Shown: piece after piece, positions 23,802-35,038 of the stretch
Layout: each line of letters opens with the position of its first letter
How positions within the stretch are numbered: position 1 is the stretch's first letter
Assembly (NCBI GenBank): GCA_020859745.1
Contig: JAJBVQ010000054.1
Coordinates: forward strand, 1-35,038
Length of the DNA: 35,038 bases
Source of the DNA: Rikenellaceae bacterium
GTDB lineage: Bacteria > Bacteroidota > Bacteroidia > Bacteroidales > Rikenellaceae
Reading direction: 5' to 3'
Position numbers and translations under genes: made by a program
The notes under the pieces: model-generated
Database searches by the model: none
Told to the model about the DNA's origin: nothing
The model's input: the letters and a program-made list of their open reading frames with translations, nothing else

Positions 23802-26495
23802 CTAAAACAACTCCAACTGGTTGCCGCTTTCCACCGCCTCGCTATCATCCGCAACGGCGGTTTCGGCACCCACCACAACTCCGCCCGCATTATCCTGCGG
23901 CTCCCCGGCAGGGCCATCCTCCTGTTCCGGCTCCGGCGCCGCCTCTTTTTGCAACGGCTCCAGCCAGACGACCTCTTCGAGCGTCAGGGTCGAAAGGCGT
24001 TTCCCTTTGGCCCGGTGGCTCTTCACACCGATAAACGCATCGGCGTCCACCACCTCCGGCGAACGGCCGTTGTATTTGCCGCCGTATTGCAACTGGATCA
24101 CCGGGTACTTGTCGTCGTTCATCGTCACGAATTCGTTCTCCGGCTCCACAAACTGCTGCGGCTTCTGGTCGCACTGCTCCGCCTGGAAACGCTTGATATA
24201 GTGCAATCCTTGCTCCTTGTCCATGTAGACCACCGTGTAGATCTTGTCCGTATCGTATTTCTCGATAAAGAGCAGGTTCTCCGGGAAATGCTGCCCGACA
24301 TCGTAATTGGAGGTATAGTACTGCGCATCTTTGGTGAATACCACCAGCCGGTCGTCGCCGGAGAATTCACCCAGCAACTCGCCCCGCTCTTCCGTATTGA
24401 GCCGGTTAATATCGTGGTCGAACCAGATATTCTGCCCGCCCAGCGTCGAGGAACCGCGCTCCTTGAGCACGATCTTGTGGAGGGCATACCGCGAGAAAAG
24501 GTTCCCCTGCGACTGCCGTCCCTTAATGACCAGGTCGCCGAAATTAAGGTCGGTGATGAGTTTCTTGAGCCTCGGCCGCGGCTTGAAGTAGATTTTCAGC
24601 GTTTCGGCCTCGCCGTTCGGGTTCACGCTCATATAGAGCACCTCACTCCCCGGCGTCCCTTTGGTTATGTCATACTCCCGGTCACGCGTAATCCCTTTGA
24701 TCGCACACCGCTTCATCATAATGGCCCCCTTCAGCCCGTCCCGGTACAGCACGTTGTAGATCGTCCGCTCGTCGTTGCGCTTGAACACCCCGATATAGAG
24801 GATATTCTTGCTGAAAAACGCCTTTTCCGAGACCTTGGTGATCGTATATTTTCCCTGTTTATTGAAGATGATCACGTCGTCGATGTCCGAGCAGTCGCAC
24901 ACGAACTCCTCTTTTTTCATCCCGGCCCCGATCCCGTAGAATCCCTCCGCCCGGTTGACATACAGTTTGGCATTGGCCACCACCACCTTCGCCGCCTCTA
25001 TCGTGTCGAAGCTCCGAATTTCCGTCTTCCGCTCCCGGCCTTTGCCGTGTTTCTTCAGGATATTCCGGTAATACGCAATCGTATAATCCGTTAGCGTCGC
25101 CAAGTGATGCTGCACTTCAGCTATCTCGGCTTCGATATTGCGGATCAACTCTTCCGCCCGGAAAGCGTCGTAGCGCGAAATGCGTTTGATCTTGATCTCC
25201 GTCAGCTTGACGATATCCTCGCGCGTCACCTCCCGCCGCAACTGCGGCTTGAACGGCGTCAGTTCCCGGTCGATGGTTTCGAGAACCCCCTCCCAGGTGG
25301 TACACTCTTCGATGGCGTTGTAGATGCGGTTCTCGATGAAGATCCGCTCCAGCGACGACATGTGCCACTCCTCGTTCAATTCCCCCAACCGGATCTCCAG
25401 CTCCCGTTTCAACAAACCCTTGGTATTTTCGACCGAGCGGCGCAGCATGTCGCTGACCCCGATGAACAGCGGTTTCTTATCCTCGATCACGCACGAGTTC
25501 GGCGAAATGGAGACTTCGCAGTCGGTAAAAGCGTACAGCGCATCGATGGTTTTATCCGGCGACACGTCCCCGGACAAGTGCACTACGATCTCGACATTGG
25601 CCGCCGTGTTATCGTCCACCTTCTTGATCTTAATCTTCCCCTTCTCGTTGGCCTTGAGGATCGAATCGATCACCGTCGAAGTGTTCTTCCCATATGGTAT
25701 CTCGGTGATTACAAGGGTCTTTTTATCCTGTTTGGCGATCTTCGCGCGCACTTTGACTGCACCGCCGCGCATCCCGTCGTTGTATTTCGAACAGTCGATC
25801 ATCCCGCCCGTCGGAAAATCCGGATAAAGCACAAACTCCTCCCCCTTAAGGTATGCAATCGAAGCCTCCAAGAGCTCGATAAAGTTATGCGGCAATATCT
25901 TCGAGGCCAGCCCCACGGCGATCCCTTCGACCCCCTGTGCCAGCAGCAGCGGAAACTTCACCGGCAAAGTCACCGGCTCCTGATTGCGGCCGTCGTACGA
26001 GAGCATCCACTCCGTCGTTTTCGGGTTGAAGACCACATCCAGCGCCAGTTTCGACAGCCTCGCCTCGATATAACGGGGCGCCGCAGCGCTGTCCCCCGTC
26101 AGGATATTACCCCAGTTCCCCTGCGTATCGACCAGCAGGTCTTTCTGTCCCAGCTGCACCAAAGCATCCCCGATCGAGGCGTCCCCGTGCGGATGAAACT
26201 GCATGGTGAAACCGATAATATTGGCCACCTTATTATATCTGCCGTCGTCCATGCGCTTCATGGAGTGCAGGATACGCCGCTGAACCGGCTTCAAACCGTC
26301 GTCCAGGTGCGGCACCGCCCGCTCCAGGATCACATAGGAAGCATAATCCAGGAACCAATCCTTATACATCCCGGTCAGCCGGTGTGCGACCGCCTCATCG
26401 GTCAGCCGGGCATATTTCCCGTGCTTCTCAGCCGTCACTTCGGCCACCTCCTCCACCTCTGCGTTCAGAGTCCCGTTCTCGTCTATTGTACTCAT
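23802..26495 (-). CDS. parC: DNA topoisomerase IV subunit A (GyrA/ParC family)
   Basis: 897 aa; LDDGLKPVQRRILHSM, FHPHGDASIGDALVQLGQ, AAPRYIEARLS with active-site Tyr; adjacent to subunit B gene. Confidence 0.95.
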   Translation of the reverse strand: MSTIDENGTLNAEVEEVAEVTAEKHGKYARLTDEAVAHRLTGMYKDWFLDYASYVILERAVPHLDDGLKPVQRRILHSMKRMDDGRYNKVANIIGFTMQFHPHGDASIGDALVQLGQKDLLVDTQGNWGNILTGDSAAAPRYIEARLSKLALDVVFNPKTTEWMLSYDGRNQEPVTLPVKFPLLLAQGVEGIAVGLASKILPHNFIELLEASIAYLKGEEFVLYPDFPTGGMIDCSKYNDGMRGGAVKVRAKIAKQDKKTLVITEIPYGKNTSTVIDSILKANEKGKIKIKKVDDNTAANVEIVVHLSGDVSPDKTIDALYAFTDCEVSISPNSCVIEDKKPLFIGVSDMLRRSVENTKGLLKRELEIRLGELNEEWHMSSLERIFIENRIYNAIEECTTWEGVLETIDRELTPFKPQLRREVTREDIVKLTEIKIKRISRYDAFRAEELIRNIEAEIAEVQHHLATLTDYTIAYYRNILKKHGKGRERKTEIRSFDTIEAAKVVVANAKLYVNRAEGFYGIGAGMKKEEFVCDCSDIDDVIIFNKQGKYTITKVSEKAFFSKNILYIGVFKRNDERTIYNVLYRDGLKGAIMMKRCAIKGITRDREYDITKGTPGSEVLYMSVNPNGEAETLKIYFKPRPRLKKLITDLNFGDLVIKGRQSQGNLFSRYALHKIVLKERGSSTLGGQNIWFDHDINRLNTEERGELLGEFSGDDRLVVFTKDAQYYTSNYDVGQHFPENLLFIEKYDTDKIYTVVYMDKEQGLHYIKRFQAEQCDQKPQQFVEPENEFVTMNDDKYPVIQLQYGGKYNGRSPEVVDADAFIGVKSHRAKGKRLSTLTLEEVVWLEPLQKEAAPEPEQEDGPAGEPQDNAGGVVVGAETAVADDSEAVESGNQLELF

Positions 26496-26521
26496 TTATA
26501 TCTCTTTCCGTAATCTACCTA

Positions 26522-28432
26522 TTATATGGCTTCAGCAGCCGTCTCTTCCTCCATGCCGGTCAGCACCTGCGCGTTTTCCAGCTCTTCGATCAGGTCTTCC
26601 TCGATCTTCAGGTTGTCGATAATGAAATCCTGCCGCTCCTGCGTGTTCTTTCCCATATAGAATTCCAGCATATCTGACACCGGGTCGCCTTTGGTGAGCC
26701 GCACCTTTTCGAGGCGTATCCCTTCGCCGATAAACTCCTTGAACTCATTGGGCGAGATCTCCCCCAGCCCCTTGAACCGCGTGATCTCGGGATTGGTCCC
26801 CAGCTTGGCGATAGCCTGTTGGCGCTCCTGTTCCGTATAGCAATACCTCGTTTCCTTCTTATTCCGCACCCGGAACAGCGGCGTCTGCAATATATATAGA
26901 TGCCCCCCTCGAATGATGTCCGGGAAAAACTGCAAAAAGAAGGTGATCAGCAGCAAACGTATGTGCATCCCGTCCACATCGGCATCGGTGGCGATAATCA
27001 CTTTGTTGTACCGCAGGTTGTCCATATCCTCCTCGATATTCAGGGCCGCCTGCAACAGGTTGAACTCTTCATTCTCGTAAACGATCTTTTTGGTCAGGCC
27101 ATAGGTATTCAGCGGCTTGCCCCGCAAGCTGAACACCGCCTGCGTATTGACATCCCGGCTTTTAGTGATCGAACCGCTGGCCGAGTCCCCCTCGGTGATG
27201 AAGATCGCGCTCTCCTCCGCCCTTTCGTCCTTGTCGCCCAGATGAATCCGGCAATCCCGCAGTTTTTTATTGTGCAGCGAAACCTTTTTGGCAAACTCCC
27301 GCGCCTTTTTCTGGATTCCGCTGATCGCCTTGCGCTCCTTCTCCGCCTCCTGTATCTTTTTTAACAGGATATCAGCCGTTTCCGGGTTTTTATGCAAGTA
27401 ATTGTCGAGGTGCTCTTTCAGGAAATCGATCACGAAGTTGCGCACCGTCACCCCATCCGGCGACATCTCTTTCGAACCCAGTTTAGTCTTGGTCTGCGAC
27501 TCGAACACCGGCTCCTCCACCTTGATGCTGATCGCCGCAATGATCGACGTCCGTATATCCGCCGCATCGAAATCTTTTTTATAGAATTCCCGGATCGTCT
27601 TGACAACCGCTTCGCGGAAAGCCGCCTGGTGCGTCCCCCCCTGCGTGGTATGCTGCCCGTTGACGAACGAATAATAGCTCTCGTTATAACCCGTCCCGTG
27701 CGTCATCGCCACCTCGATATCCTCGCCCCGCAGGTGAATCGGCGGATAGAGGAAGTCCCCGCCCACACTCTCGGTCAGCAGGTCGAGCAACCCGTTTTTC
27801 GACACGTAAGGCACTCCGTTGAACTTGATCACCAGCCCGGCATTCAGGTAGGTGTAGTTCCGGAGCATCGTTTCGATATATTCATAGTTGTAGCGGTAGG
27901 AGCCGAACACTGCTTCATCGGCCACGAACTGCACCCGCGTCCCATTCTTCTCACCCGTCGAGTCGGTATGCTCCCCGGTCTTGGAACCCGCCGCAAACTC
28001 GATGGTCCGCGCCTCGCCGTCCCGCGTGCTGGTTATCGTAAAAGTCGAGGACAAAGCATTCACCGCCTTGATACCCACCCCATTCAGCCCGACAGATTTC
28101 TTAAACGCTTTGGAGTCGTACTTGGCTCCGGTGTTCATCTTCGAAGCCACCTCTTCCAACTTGCCCAACGGGATCCCGCGACCGTAGTCGCGAATGGTCA
28201 CCGTAACGCCGTCCACATTGATCTCGATCTGCTTGCCGAAACCCATCATATACTCGTCCAGCGAGTTGTCCAACACCTCCTTGATCAGGATATAGATCCC
28301 GTCGTCGGGCTGCGACCCGTCGCCGAGTTTACCGATATACATCCCCGGCCGGCGGCGGATATGCTCCTTCCAGTCGAGGGTCTGGATATGTTCTTCCGAA
28401 TAGTTGCTTGCTGCCTATTGTGCTGCTGTCAT
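26522..28432 (-). CDS. parE: DNA topoisomerase IV subunit B, with in-frame TAG at codon 6 (28415-28417); uninterrupted ORF begins 28342 or earlier
   Basis: LLKKIQ..., [46 protein letters not shown]. Upstream of MYIGK the frame reads [29 protein letters not shown], matching the conserved topo IV B N-terminus. Confidence 0.93.
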
Positions 28433-28448
28433 CTCGTATTTTGTTCTC

Positions 28449-29195
28449 CTACTGTTTATCCTTGTAATGGCGCGGCGCGATCGCTTTGTGCGTATCGCAC
28501 ATCAAAGTGTTGAGCGTGTCGCGCAACTCCCTGGCCGGCGCCTTCGAAATCTCGTTCGCGCTGATCGGCGCCAGTATCCGCACCTGAAAGGTATGAGGCG
28601 CCGCAATCCCGCCTTTCCCGAAAGCATCGAACGTCCCGTCGATCACCACGGGCAAAATATCCGCCCCGCTCTGCTGCGCCAGTATCATCGCCCCCTCCTT
28701 AAAGTTATTCACACATCCGGTCTTGGTCCGCGTCCCCTCCGGGAACATAATGATGCTGACCCCGTCTTTCAGATAATCCTCGCATTTCTGCAACATCGCT
28801 TTGGCGCTGGCCGTGCCGCCCCGTTCGATCGCCACGTCGCCGTGCATCCACAGCACCCAGCCGAAAATCGGTATCTTGTACACCTCCCGCTTCGAAACCC
28901 ACTTGAAGTTGAAAGGAAGCACGTACAGCAACGGTATATCGAGCATCGCCTGATGGTTCGACACCACGACATACGACCGTCCGTAGATCACGTTCTCCAA
29001 ACCGGTGACCCGCACTTTCCACCACGGGCAGAGCCGGTAGATGTTCTTCGACCAGAAACGCGACACGTGGTGGCAAACCACCCGGTTGCGGTCGAACAGC
29101 ACGGTCAGGAGCCACACGACGGCGAATACAACGAACATAACGATCGTGAATACGAACATGACGACCTGATAATAAATAGTTTTTAACCTTCTCAT
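28449..29195 (-). CDS. plsC: 1-acyl-sn-glycerol-3-phosphate acyltransferase
   Basis: 248 aa; VVSNHQAMLDIPLLYVLPF (NHxxxxD motif), IIMFPEGTRTKTG. Confidence 0.95.
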   Translation of the reverse strand: MRRLKTIYYQVVMFVFTIVMFVVFAVVWLLTVLFDRNRVVCHHVSRFWSKNIYRLCPWWKVRVTGLENVIYGRSYVVVSNHQAMLDIPLLYVLPFNFKWVSKREVYKIPIFGWVLWMHGDVAIERGGTASAKAMLQKCEDYLKDGVSIIMFPEGTRTKTGCVNNFKEGAMILAQQSGADILPVVIDGTFDAFGKGGIAAPHTFQVRILAPISANEISKAPARELRDTLNTLMCDTHKAIAPRHYKDKQ

Positions 29196-29218: not shown

Positions 29219-31303
29219 CTAAAATTCGGCACGAGCTACATTCCCGACCGTAACCGTCAGTTTACGGTCCTTGCCGACCGACCCGACTCCCGGAATCTGC
29301 ACCTCGGCCGATTCACCCGGAGCCGCAGCCACGCTTACGATCCCCTCTCGCACGACCTTATCGCCCGAAGTCAAATGGTAGGTTACGGTAAACTGTTCCA
29401 AGTCCGTATATTGCAGCCGGTTCTCGAATTTATAAATCCCCTTCGAGGCATCCACCTGCGTAATGGCCACATTGGCAAAAAGCGTGCGCAGCTGTTCGTC
29501 CTGCGACATCGCCGCCAGACCGACTTTCCCATTATTCGCCGCGCTTCGCTGATAGTCGTCCGAAAGGATATACTTCCCGCCCGGAATCCGCGCCGTCAGC
29601 GACATGTCGTTCCAACGCTCCAGAAAAGCCCCCTGCAAACCCGGCGTCGTCCACCACGCCGGATCGAACGTCACCCGGGAAGGCACCAGCGGACGTCCCG
29701 ATCCGTTTACCGCCGACTCCGGATAATCCGGGCAATAAACGTCCGTGTTCCACTCCTTGGCCGCCCCATTATACACGACCGGCCGCGTCCGTTCCTTGCC
29801 TTTGAGCATTAGGTAGCCCTGGTACATGTTGTACCCGTTCCCCGAACGATCGCCCAGCGACCACATGACCACCGAAGGATGGTTCTTATTCCGCTCGTAC
29901 ATCGCCGCGATCCGGGCCAGATAGGCCTCGCGCCACGTCGGATCGTTCGAAATATTCCCGCCTTTGTTCCGGTTGTTACCCAGGCCCCAGGTATTTATGT
30001 CCGCCACATCGCAGACGTAAAAGCCCAACTCATCGCAAAGCTGGTAGAAACAGTACGGCTGCGGATAGCCGTCCGTGCGGATGGCATTCACCCCCGCAAA
30101 TTTCATTTCGGTCAGCATTTGCCGCATCCGGGCCGTATCCACATAATTACCCGTTGCGGGCGTATGTTCCGCCAAATTCACCCCCTTGAAAACCACCGGC
30201 TTCCCATTCACCAGAAATTGTTCGCCTTTAGTCTCGACCGTGCGGAACCCGACCCGGCAAGCCACATATTCGGTGAACCGTCCTTCCCGCTTGATCCGGT
30301 ACAGGATGGTATACAGGTTCGGTTGTTCCGCCGACCATTTCACGACGTTCGGGATAGAAGCGGTGAACCGGATCGTGTCCTCGACCCGCATACCCACCTC
30401 CACATCCCGGAAGTTGCTGTTCACCAGTTTGCCCTGCGGATCGTACAGGTCATAATATACGGTCACCGGGAATGGGTTTAGCAACTGCGTTTTCAGCAGC
30501 ATGGCCGTTTCCAGCAGGCCGTTGGTGTAGGTCGGGTCGAGCGTGGTCTGGACCAGATAGTCCCGCATGCGGATCTTCGGCTGGGCGAACAGGAAAATAT
30601 CCCGGTTGATCCCCGCCAGCCGCCAGTCCTGCCAGTCTTCCAGATAACTCCCCTCGGTAAACTGCGGCACCACCAGCGCCACCCAGTTGCGCCCCTCGCC
30701 CACATAGCGGGTCACGTCGAACTCGACCGGGTTTTTCGAATCTCTTCTGGAAAAACCGACCTCTTTGCCGTTGACATAGACCTTTACGCCCGCCTTAACC
30801 GCCCCGACATGTAGGAAGTGCGCCTTGTCGAACAGGTCGAACGGCACGGTAAATTTCCGGATATAGACCGCCACCGGCGAATCGCCCGGCAAGTGAGGCG
30901 GCCGCACTTCTCCTTTCGACTTGGCGAAATCATAGGCTTTCGAGGCGAACACCGCGCTCCCCTCGCCGCCGTGCCCCTCCAGCTCCCACGCCCCCGGCAG
31001 GGTAACGGTTTCCCATTCCTTCGTCAGTTTTTCCAGAGCGTCCCCGGTGCCCGAGACCTGCCTCGGCACAGCGGATTGCGACGGAAACAGTCTGTAACTC
31101 CACTCTCCGTTCAGCCCGACGTAATACTGCGAGCTGTCGAAATCGTTACGGAACGCATCCCGCTGGTTGCGGTAACTTACGAAAACCGAGCGGGGAAGCT
31201 CCTGGTTCTCCGAGATCACGTACGGGGCGGCATATTTTTTCGGTCCGGCATACGAGCCGTATGTCAGGGAAAGCAATGCGATTGCGGCAAGAAGTCGTTT
31301 CAT
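29219..31303 (-). CDS. Glycoside hydrolase family 2-like secreted protein, probable catalytically inactive homologue
   Basis: Signal peptide MKRLLAAIALLSLTYGSYAG; GH2 sugar-binding jelly-roll region, Ig-like region and TIM-barrel-like NAIRTDGYPQPYCFYQLCDELGFYVCDVADINTWG, HPSVVMWSLGDRSGNGYN. ATG at 31303 preferred over 31366. Confidence 0.88.
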   Translation of the reverse strand: MKRLLAAIALLSLTYGSYAGPKKYAAPYVISENQELPRSVFVSYRNQRDAFRNDFDSSQYYVGLNGEWSYRLFPSQSAVPRQVSGTGDALEKLTKEWETVTLPGAWELEGHGGEGSAVFASKAYDFAKSKGEVRPPHLPGDSPVAVYIRKFTVPFDLFDKAHFLHVGAVKAGVKVYVNGKEVGFSRRDSKNPVEFDVTRYVGEGRNWVALVVPQFTEGSYLEDWQDWRLAGINRDIFLFAQPKIRMRDYLVQTTLDPTYTNGLLETAMLLKTQLLNPFPVTVYYDLYDPQGKLVNSNFRDVEVGMRVEDTIRFTASIPNVVKWSAEQPNLYTILYRIKREGRFTEYVACRVGFRTVETKGEQFLVNGKPVVFKGVNLAEHTPATGNYVDTARMRQMLTEMKFAGVNAIRTDGYPQPYCFYQLCDELGFYVCDVADINTWGLGNNRNKGGNISNDPTWREAYLARIAAMYERNKNHPSVVMWSLGDRSGNGYNMYQGYLMLKGKERTRPVVYNGAAKEWNTDVYCPDYPESAVNGSGRPLVPSRVTFDPAWWTTPGLQGAFLERWNDMSLTARIPGGKYILSDDYQRSAANNGKVGLAAMSQDEQLRTLFANVAITQVDASKGIYKFENRLQYTDLEQFTVTYHLTSGDKVVREGIVSVAAAPGESAEVQIPGVGSVGKDRKLTVTVGNVARAEF

Positions 31304-31325: not shown

Positions 31326-31333
31326 CAAATATA
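31326..31333 (-). promoter_or_regulatory. Putative -7 promoter element (TATATTTG) for the GH2-like gene
   Basis: Reverse complement of CAAATATA, 23 bp upstream of ATG at 31303. Confidence 0.5.
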
Positions 31334-31415
31334 ACGTTTTTTCGGGATATGCCCTACCCTTTCCATCCCGCGGCGACGCGGCGAGACGGTAAAAAAGTAT
31401 TTGTAAAAAAACGTT

Positions 31416-31447: not shown

Positions 31448-32329
31448 ATGAAAGCATACGTTTTCCCCGGTCAGGGCGCACAGTTCACCGGTATGGGCAA
31501 AGAGCTGTACGATACCGTGCCGGCTGCCAAGGAGATGTTCGAAAAAGCCAACGAGATCCTCGGCTTCCGCATCACGGACATCATGTTCAACGGCACCGCC
31601 GACGAGCTGAAACAGACCAAGGTAACCCAGCCGGCGGTGTTCCTCCATTCGGTGATCCTGGCCAAATCGCTGCCGGATTTCAAACCGGACATGACGGCCG
31701 GCCATTCGCTGGGTGAATTCAGCGCATTGGTGGCGGCCGGGGCGCTGAGCTTCGAAGAGGGGCTCAAACTGGTGTCGAAACGTGCGCAGGCCATGCAGAA
31801 AGCCTGCGAAATGCAGCCTTCGACCATGGCGGCCATCATCGGGCTGCCGGACGAAGTGGTCGAGGAGGTGTGCGCCTCGATCCCGGAAGTGGTCGTGGCG
31901 GCTAACTACAACTGTCCGGGGCAGTTGGTGATCTCCGGCTCGATCGAAGGGATCGACAAAGCCTGCGAGCAGCTGACGGCCAAAGGCGCCAAGCGGGCGC
32001 TGAAACTGAGCGTCGGCGGCGCGTTCCACTCCCCGCTGATGGAACCGGCCCGCGTGGAGCTGGAAGCGGCGATCCAAGCGGCGCAGTTCACCGCGCCGGT
32101 ATGCCCGGTCTATCAGAATGTGGACGCCAAGCCGTATACCGACCCGGAAAAGATTAACGCCAACCTGATCGCGCAGCGCACCGCTCCGGTGCGGTGGACC
32201 CAGACGGTGCAGAACATGATCGCCGACGGAGCCACCTCGTTTACCGAACTCGGGCCGGGCAACGTGCTGGCCGGACTGATCAAAAAAGTGAACAAAGAGG
32301 CGGTGTGCGAATCCAAAAGCACGCTTTAA
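31448..32329 (+). CDS. fabD: Malonyl CoA-acyl carrier protein transacylase
   Basis: 293 aa; YVFPGQGAQFTGMGKELYD, TAGHSLGEFSALVAAGALSFEEGLKLV, GAFHSPLMEPA. Confidence 0.97.
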   Translation: MKAYVFPGQGAQFTGMGKELYDTVPAAKEMFEKANEILGFRITDIMFNGTADELKQTKVTQPAVFLHSVILAKSLPDFKPDMTAGHSLGEFSALVAAGALSFEEGLKLVSKRAQAMQKACEMQPSTMAAIIGLPDEVVEEVCASIPEVVVAANYNCPGQLVISGSIEGIDKACEQLTAKGAKRALKLSVGGAFHSPLMEPARVELEAAIQAAQFTAPVCPVYQNVDAKPYTDPEKINANLIAQRTAPVRWTQTVQNMIADGATSFTELGPGNVLAGLIKKVNKEAVCESKSTL

Positions 32330-33019: not shown

Positions 33020-34069
33020 ATGAAAAGGTTCCTATCGCTCGATGTTTTCCGGGGCATGACCATCCTGATGATGATCGTCCTGAACAACCAGGCCGGCGGC
33101 TCGGTCTTCGCTCCCTTGGTACACAGCAGCTGGGACGGTGTGACGTTTGCCGATATGATCTTTCCTTTCTTCCTTTTCATTATGGGCGCGGCCATGTGGT
33201 TCTCCACGCACCGGCACGACTATGGCGTACGCGATACGCGCTCCAAGTCGGGACGGATGGGCCGCATCTTCCGGCGCAGCATCATTCTGTTTGCTCTCGG
33301 GATCCTGTTGAACTGGATGCCGTTCGACGATTATTTCGCTTTCGTGCGTATTCCGGGGGTGCTGCAACGGATCGCCCTGGCCTATTTCTTTGCCGCCGTG
33401 CTGACGCTCTATATGCCGCGCGTCCGGGCTATCGTACTGAGCGTTATCGTACTCTTGGCGGGGTATTGGTTCCTGCTGGACGCCTGGGGCACCGATGTGG
33501 TGGGACGCGTCGATGTAGTTTTGCTGGGATCTTACCACCTGCTGACCCCGACGTTCGATCCGGAGGGGCTGCTGAGTACTATCCCGGCTATTGCCAGCGT
33601 ACTGATTGGTTACCTTGCGGGACGGATGATGGACCAGCCCAACAGCATGAGCGGGGGGATCAGCTCGCTGATGGTGGTCGGGCTGTTGCTCACGGGGGCG
33701 GGGATCCTGTGCGGCCTCTTCTGGCCGATGAACAAGCAACTTTGGACGGGCAGCTATGTGCTGTTCACCTCGGGGACGGCGATGGTCATCTGGAGCCTGC
33801 TGTCGTTCTTCATCGAATATATGCAGGCGAAGAACTGGTGCGAGTTTTTCACTATCGCGGGGACCAACTCGCTCTTTATCTATTGCCTCTCGATCGTGCT
33901 GGCCAAGCTGTTCGCCCTGTGGGGCGTGACGCAGGCCGTGTACGGGTTTTACCAGAGCTACCATGTGCCCGACTCCGTCGCCTCGCTGATGTGGTCGCTG
34001 ACCATGGTGCTCCTCTGCTGGCTGGTCACCTGGCCGCTTTACCGGATGAAAATTTACATTTCCGCTTAA
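33020..34069 (+). CDS. HGSNAT-like (heparan-alpha-glucosaminide N-acetyltransferase / DUF5009-type) membrane acyltransferase
   Basis: 349 aa multi-TM; FLSLDVFRGMTILMMIVLNNQAG, HSSWDGVTFADMIFPFFLFIMGAAMW, VRIPGVLQRIALAYFFAAV, NKQLWTGSYVLFTSG; close to the human HGSNAT pattern [22 protein letters not shown]. Confidence 0.92.
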   Translation: MKRFLSLDVFRGMTILMMIVLNNQAGGSVFAPLVHSSWDGVTFADMIFPFFLFIMGAAMWFSTHRHDYGVRDTRSKSGRMGRIFRRSIILFALGILLNWMPFDDYFAFVRIPGVLQRIALAYFFAAVLTLYMPRVRAIVLSVIVLLAGYWFLLDAWGTDVVGRVDVVLLGSYHLLTPTFDPEGLLSTIPAIASVLIGYLAGRMMDQPNSMSGGISSLMVVGLLLTGAGILCGLFWPMNKQLWTGSYVLFTSGTAMVIWSLLSFFIEYMQAKNWCEFFTIAGTNSLFIYCLSIVLAKLFALWGVTQAVYGFYQSYHVPDSVASLMWSLTMVLLCWLVTWPLYRMKIYISA

Positions 34070-34073
34070 CGAC

Positions 34074-35038
34074 ATGAAAACCATACCCTCCTGTACCCTG
34101 CTGCTGACTACGGCCCTGACGGCCGGAGCGGCTGAACGGACTGCCGCCCAGCGGCCGAATATCATCTTTTTCCTGGTGGACGACATGGGGTGGCAGGACA
34201 CCTCCCTGCCGTTCTGGAAAGATACGACGGACCTGAACCGCACCTACCGCACGCCGAACATGGAGCGGTTGGCGGCGATGGGGACGAAATTTACCGACGC
34301 TTACGCGTGCCCGGTGAGTTCGCCCTCGCGCATCAGCCTGATCACGGGTACCAACGTGGCGCAGCACAAGGTGTCGAACTGGACGCTGCAAAAGAATACG
34401 CCGACCGACTCGCACAGCGATTCGCTGACCTTCGAGCGGTGGAACTATAACGGCACCTCGCCGGTTCCGGGGGTCGAGAACGCCTTTTACGCCACGCCGC
34501 TGGCACAAGTGCTCAAAGATAACGGCTATACCACTCTATTTGTAGGAAAGGCTCATTTCGGGGCTTTGGACACCCCGGCGGCCGATCCGCTGACGATGGG
34601 TTTCGACCGCAATATCGCCGGGCATGCGGCCGGTGCGATGGGGAGTTACCTGGGCGAGGACAATTATGGTAATTACCCGGCAGGGACGTGGACCAAGCCG
34701 TGGGGGACGCCGATGCTGGAGAAATACCACGGAACGGACACGTTCCTGACCGAGGCGCTGACTTTGGAAGCCTCGAAACTGATCGACAGCTCGGCGGCTG
34801 TGAACAAGCCGTTTCTCCTCTACATGAGCCATTACGCCGTCCATGCGCCGTTCAAGGCGGACAAGCGGTTTATCCAGAAATACCGGGACCGGGGCATGAC
34901 GGAGGTCGAGGCGGAATATGCGGCGATCGTCGAGGGGATGGACAAGAGCCTGGGGGATTTGATGGAGTTGGTGCGGGAGAAAGGGATCGCGGACAACACG
35001 ATCTTTATCTTCATGTCGGATAACGGCGGCTACAGAGC
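34074..35038 (+). CDS. Sulfatase (arylsulfatase family S1, Ser-type), 3' truncated by window edge
   Basis: Open frame to window end, absent from ORF track because no stop: MKTIPSCTLLLTTALTAGAAERTAAQRPNIIFFLVDDMGWQDTS...YACPVSSPSRISLITG...FVGKAHFG...FLLYMSHYAVHAPF...FIFMSDNGGYR. Confidence 0.96.
   Translation, partial: MKTIPSCTLLLTTALTAGAAERTAAQRPNIIFFLVDDMGWQDTSLPFWKDTTDLNRTYRTPNMERLAAMGTKFTDAYACPVSSPSRISLITGTNVAQHKVSNWTLQKNTPTDSHSDSLTFERWNYNGTSPVPGVENAFYATPLAQVLKDNGYTTLFVGKAHFGALDTPAADPLTMGFDRNIAGHAAGAMGSYLGEDNYGNYPAGTWTKPWGTPMLEKYHGTDTFLTEALTLEASKLIDSSAAVNKPFLLYMSHYAVHAPFKADKRFIQKYRDRGMTEVEAEYAAIVEGMDKSLGDLMELVREKGIADNTIFIFMSDNGGYR

Follow-up and report, generated by a model that had tools for sequence, protein, structure and literature searches.

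A predicted LacZ-type GH2 pseudoenzyme kept beside fabD in Rikenella, and its short relatives across Rikenellaceae

What keeps a gene in place once the enzyme it encodes has apparently lost its chemistry? The question is raised by one open reading frame in the window, by which we mean the whole 35,038-nucleotide stretch of Rikenellaceae bacterium DNA analysed here. The frame lies on the minus strand at 29219-31303, and its translation begins MKRLLAAIALLSLTYGSYAG. A first-pass annotation had described it as an intact gene, with signal peptide and promoter, for a GH2 protein apparently devoid of catalytic and Mg-site residues that looks to be maintained in a non-catalytic role. The gene and its surroundings are laid out as follows.

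29219-31303, minus strand: predicted secreted LacZ-type GH2 pseudoenzyme, 694 amino acids plus stop (from sequence, AF2 model and fold matches)
31326-31333, minus strand: TATATTTG, a TAnnTTTG-type Bacteroidota -7 promoter element, about 25 nt before the ATG
31244-31303, minus strand: predicted signal peptide, residues 1-20, no lipobox Cys (read from the sequence; N termini of orthologues comparable)
30578-31114, minus strand: domain 1, jelly-roll sugar-binding, PF02837, residues 64-242 (Pfam)
30242-30571, minus strand: domain 2, Ig-like, PF00703, residues 245-354, under stronger constraint than any other domain of the pseudoenzyme (Pfam and conservation)
29579-30238, minus strand: degenerate, shortened TIM barrel, PF02836 positions 1-174 of 302, residues 356-575 (Pfam, alignment and AF2)
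29222-29494, minus strand: LacZ domain 4 (LacZ_4, PF16353; Pfam and alignment)
31448-32329, plus strand: fabD, divergently oriented, a marker of the conserved locus
28449-29195, minus strand: plsC-like acyltransferase, the downstream neighbour, conserved together with parE and gyrA/parC

Membership of the GH2 family is evident from Pfam matches (PF02837, 3.2e-27; PF00703, 8.1e-11; PF02836, 3.5e-44) and from the fold: LacZ enzymes are the top matches of an AF2 model (pLDDT 81.4, pTM 0.86) that retains barrel-like strands, with those of B. thetaiotaomicron, Thermotoga and E. coli the closest solved structures. By sequence, too, the nearest solved proteins are LacZ-type beta-galactosidases. The protein scores 390 bits against the NCBIfam equivalog NF052611, below the cut-off of 999. 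In alignment with full-length LacZ, domain 5 is absent and the C terminus follows domain 4. Six Rikenella-group orthologues, and L123 as well, keep the promoter box TATATTTG ahead of their ATG. Translation could in principle begin at another ATG, at 31366, but the box would then fall within the extended frame, and the signal peptide starts at 31303. Neither the protein nor its setting resembles a PUL surface glycan-binding protein: there is no lipobox, and the neighbours are fabD, plsC, parE and gyrA, not SusC/SusD. Elsewhere in the window, positions 33020-35038 hold a membrane protein with a weak DUF5009 match and then a sulfatase cut by the window end, a pair kept beside fabD in several Rikenella-group genomes. 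Open frames of up to 469 amino acids on the plus strand at 23802-28513, antisense to gyrA/parC and parE, are shadow frames of high-GC coding sequence, not genes.

We mapped LacZ positions onto the window protein by aligning it to full-length LacZ from Rikenellaceae. Three short segments, all on the minus strand, hold the decisive positions.

29984-30010, minus strand: DVADINTWG, residues 432-440, in which Mg ligands E416 and H418 have become N437 and W439 (alignment)
29843-29854, minus strand: GDRS, G484-D485-R486-S487 (codons GGC GAT CGT TCG), in which N460 has become D485 and the acid/base E461 has become R486 (alignment)
29675-29677, minus strand: R543, in place of the nucleophile E537 (alignment; Arg in all eight members of the Rik clade)

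Each of the altered motifs singled out by the first-pass annotation was borne out, at the coordinates it gave. The acid/base Glu of the WSLGNE motif is missing, the nucleophile segment has been rewritten and shortened around R537-P538...P541-S542-R543, and all three Mg ligands (E416, H418 and E461) are replaced, by N437, W439 and R486, respectively. Further losses are H357 to A378, H391 to G412 and W568 to E562. In LacZ, H357, H391, N460 and W568, together with the Mg site, hold galactose. Two substrate contacts, D201 (here D188) and Y503 (here Y527), are retained, so that to call all functional residues lost is slightly too strong. The GH2 retaining mechanism needs two carboxylates. With both gone, catalysis by that route is not credible, and the window protein is predicted to be dead in this respect.

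An error of sequence or assembly at these positions can be dismissed, because seven genomes, two of them from cultured strains (Rikenella microfusus DSM 15922 and Millionella massiliensis), agree at both catalytic positions. Eight genomes were sampled from the GTDB genus Rikenella, to which the window belongs, and every one has the gene, seven as a complete copy and one (G002) as a contig-end fragment. The gene adjoins fabD wherever that flank was recovered, and in all seven complete copies it is followed by plsC, parE and gyrA/parC. GDRS and an Arg at the nucleophile position occur in 7/7; a copy at the same locus in another genus (G019), which with these seven makes up the Rik clade (n = 8), reads GDNA, with Asn at the acid/base position, and again Arg at the nucleophile position. 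The canonical Glu pair was looked for and is carried by none of the orthologues, nor does the alignment reveal another pair of Glu residues in its stead; the full-length LacZ proteins of the same genomes, in contrast, have these residues intact. The median dN/dS (NG86) of the Rikenella-group copies is 0.107, compared with 0.101 for plsC, 0.053 for fabD and 0.031 for parE, with dS near saturation in every pair except G000/G005 (dS 0.17, ratio 0.10). The strand bearing the pseudo acid/base position, residues 476-500, is 92% invariant across the seven genomes. The dN/dS values and the intact frames speak strongly against decay. With its catalytic residues lost and the gene under purifying selection, the protein would thus qualify as a pseudoenzyme, and maintenance without catalysis, as first proposed, is the outcome that the orthologues support.

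The gene is not confined to Rikenella. Nearly every near-complete Rikenellaceae genome encodes one or two short relatives (about 430-780 amino acids) that have lost the catalytic residues. At a threshold of E <= 1e-75, a type A profile matched 108 of 110 near-complete genomes and a type B profile 106, in frames mostly of 430-780 amino acids; only two, the reduced genomes G068 and G148 (1.3 and 1.6 Mb), lack a match to either. Neighbouring genes, named by sequence recognition and shared clusters, place type A downstream of malic enzyme and not far from fabD; type B beside a DUF4954-like gene, AsnS and RpoN, with Der alongside in some genomes; and type C beside GlmS, in some genomes with Der. 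Forty further members were read, yielding 36 usable frames. The nucleophile segment of LacZ is absent from all of them, and residues at the acid/base position differ freely from one protein to the next, a few having Glu. In many type B proteins the chain stops short of barrel closure, at a conserved GEWNSDL. Long type B frames (950-1540 amino acids), considered as fusions to the DUF4954-like neighbour, proved to be open-frame read-through upstream of the real start. Five type A/B pairs gave dN/dS of 0.12-0.19, and frames are intact in about 100 Rikenellaceae genomes. Outside the family, among the matches listed for 148 genomes of the order Bacteroidales, only two short forms appeared, both in contig-end fragments; the other listed matches are full-length, at about 1030-1330 amino acids. 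Two individual loci may be mentioned here. The match of a type C relative beside GlmS (L155, G012:C399) contains an in-frame TAA, possibly through decay or assembly error, and at L090 (G033:C40) a type A form adjoins a full-length LacZ-type gene on the same strand with WSLGNEAG intact.

Where did these proteins come from? Intact full-length LacZ genes occupy the corresponding positions in other genomes: next to plsC-parE-gyrA in G034 and next to malic enzyme in G013, G026 and G032 for the fabD lineage, and at the Der locus in Rikenella and G019. The best tree, which is not fully supported, has one group made up of Rik, R2 and type A forms plus the fabD-region LacZ (support 74/99.7) and another in which the Der-region LacZ joins types B and C (support 64/75). 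Together, the loci and the tree suggest that two ancestral LacZ genes each turned into a pseudoenzyme in place. Free trees require several losses of catalysis, with R2 joined to the active L136 at 99/99 and L134 and L142 active within the fabD lineage; AU tests at the 5% level do not reject a single clade of pseudoenzymes (p = 0.096 with R2, 0.22 without). Among the sampled genera with one active copy the two lineages are reciprocal, the lineage of some copies being assigned from the tree only: Rikenella, G019 and G036 combine a pseudo fabD-lineage copy with an active Der-lineage copy, and G011, G013, G026, G031 and G032 show the opposite. In G010, G014 and G025 the two pseudo forms occur together, and no full-length LacZ gave a strong match. 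A full-length LacZ homologue of 1103 residues, L133 (G027:C5), carries E461K, E537A, H540R and W568S; it is a predicted pseudoenzyme that has not been truncated and perhaps represents an intermediate stage.

The distribution of sequence constraint bears most directly on function. In four genomes, the fraction of invariant sites in the pseudoenzyme is 0.91 for domain 2 and 0.71 for the barrel; for the active LacZ of the same genomes the values are 0.74 and 0.91 (log-odds difference, z = 5.6). Identity is higher in domain 2 than in the barrel for 28/28 pairs of the Rik clade, compared with 0/36 pairs of LacZ from Rikenellaceae and 0/153 from other Bacteroidales. Within the genus, domain 2 and strand 476-500 are the best-kept parts. 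In the Rikenella copies, constraint has shifted from the barrel to domain 2, the opposite of active LacZ. This dominance of domain 2 is clear in the Rik clade only: after exclusion of four of the 40 extra relatives, whose automatic frames were wrong, domain 2 and barrel are equally conserved in type A, and the barrel part is slightly more conserved than domain 2 in type B, both types still being unlike active LacZ.

The movement of constraint off the barrel is the main reason that we favour a protein-protein or scaffold role. In the scenario that we propose, a LacZ-type GH2 beta-galactosidase gene near fabD in the ancestral Rikenellaceae would have lost catalysis and then been kept as a secreted or periplasmic pseudoglycosidase, and a second LacZ locus, in the Der neighbourhood, would have met a parallel fate, which would account for the one or two such proteins in most genomes of the family. 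The binding surfaces may comprise the beta-sandwich face of domains 1 and 2 and strand 476-500 with its cluster of R486, R543 and D485. The protein would most probably belong to an envelope complex, in which it would help assembly or act as a scaffold, its partner possibly being itself or another LacZ-derived protein of the same cell. That it is a maintained pseudoglycosidase working by binding as such a subunit, and not by glycan hydrolysis, is a reading to which, as a matter of judgement, we give about an even chance. A bolder extension, that the two near-universal secreted proteins, LacZ derivatives by parallel loss, assemble with each other or with a remaining LacZ into an envelope structure on which the family depends, seems to us rather improbable.

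Other explanations account for parts of the same evidence. A lectin-like function, with either the jelly-roll domain 1 or the former pocket, now remodelled by two arginines, holding a glycan (perhaps anionic) for uptake or for other enzymes, is possible but on the whole unlikely. The jelly-roll domain is present in all forms, the pocket strands GDRSGNGYN, PSR and FLERWND are largely invariant in seven genomes, the persistence of D188 and Y527 means that some sugar contact is possible, and some inactive GH18-like proteins are lectins (PMC11180146). Yet the galactose-holding residues H357, H391, N460 and W568 and the Mg site are gone, the window gene lies outside any PUL, type B relatives end before beta-6 and so have no closed pocket, and BT1284, the best-studied Bacteroidales pseudo-GH, showed no glycan binding under the conditions assayed (PMC11180146). 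Because constraint lies in domain 2 and type B ends before barrel closure, pocket-type glycan binding is generally less likely than a role of the beta-sandwich or in protein-protein contact. Mixed LacZ oligomers, in which a cell's fabD-lineage and Der-lineage proteins co-assemble and only one is active, would explain the reciprocal pattern of active and pseudo copies and the constraint on domain 2 in the latter; domain 2 forms part of the subunit contacts in LacZ. The two genes are unlinked, however, and since G010, G014 and G025 lack a strong full-length LacZ match, pseudo forms need no active partner and such oligomers cannot be general; we regard this explanation as improbable.

That the gene is a relic, a secreted LacZ slowly decaying and retained by chance, is strongly disfavoured. 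The divergence and shortening of types A and B, the in-frame stop in G012 and the two genomes matching neither profile would fit such a history, but dN/dS values of 0.10 within the genus and 0.12-0.19 in the type A/B pairs, the intact frames of about 100 genomes, the conserved GEWNSDL ends of many type B forms and the invariance of strand 476-500 all speak against it. We consider it most improbable of all that the protein is still active on another substrate, its catalytic residues having moved elsewhere, for instance to D485 and E562. D485 is invariant across the Rik clade, E562 is present in 7/8 of its members, and the modelled barrel keeps its strands; nevertheless, G019 has Thr in place of E562, both catalytic positions are taken by arginines in the Rikenella group, constraint has left the barrel, and an acidic pair common to the A, B, C and Rik forms was looked for in the alignment and does not appear.

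These genes matter beyond this locus. Glycosidase-family profiles match the short pseudo-GH2 genes present in almost every Rikenellaceae genome, and the window gene matches beta-galactosidase models; glycan-degradation inventories of the family, including Alistipes, may therefore be overcounted. Two LacZ loci turned into conserved pseudoenzymes, with intact versions in sister genera, offer a natural series from enzyme to binding protein, and, being secreted and near-universal in a family common in the gut, such a protein gives genetic work a concrete target.

Inactive GH homologues are already a known kind of protein, and the open-access literature yielded no report of a GH2/LacZ pseudoenzyme family and none of a GH2 pseudoenzyme in Bacteroidales. 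With LacZ-type GH2 beta-galactosidases (3BGA/3DEC of B. thetaiotaomicron, E. coli LacZ and 6SD0 of Thermotoga) the window protein shares the order of jelly-roll, Ig, TIM and LacZ_4 domains, at 25-28% identity over about 720-740 alignment columns and TM scores of 0.74-0.76 (query length); unlike them, it has other residues in place of the catalytic Glu pair, the Mg site and most of the substrate contacts, a shortened barrel and no domain 5. The closest bacterial precedent is the BT1284 group of GH18-like pseudo-endoglycosidases, which includes the GH18-like protein of B. faecium and is conserved across many gut Bacteroidales (PMC11180146). These too are inactive GH homologues that combine a beta-sandwich with a TIM barrel, and they are catalytically impaired, with no detectable glycan binding under the assayed conditions (PMC11180146). 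They differ in GH family and ancestry, and BT1284 is PUL-encoded, whereas the window gene sits among housekeeping genes and is vertically inherited. The GH28 pseudoenzymes of leaf beetles are likewise dead GH copies that have been kept (PMC6549527); they differ in belonging to a multigene family of eukaryotes that serves digestion and whose active enzymes are present alongside them, and their physiological impact is strong and measurable (PMC6549527).
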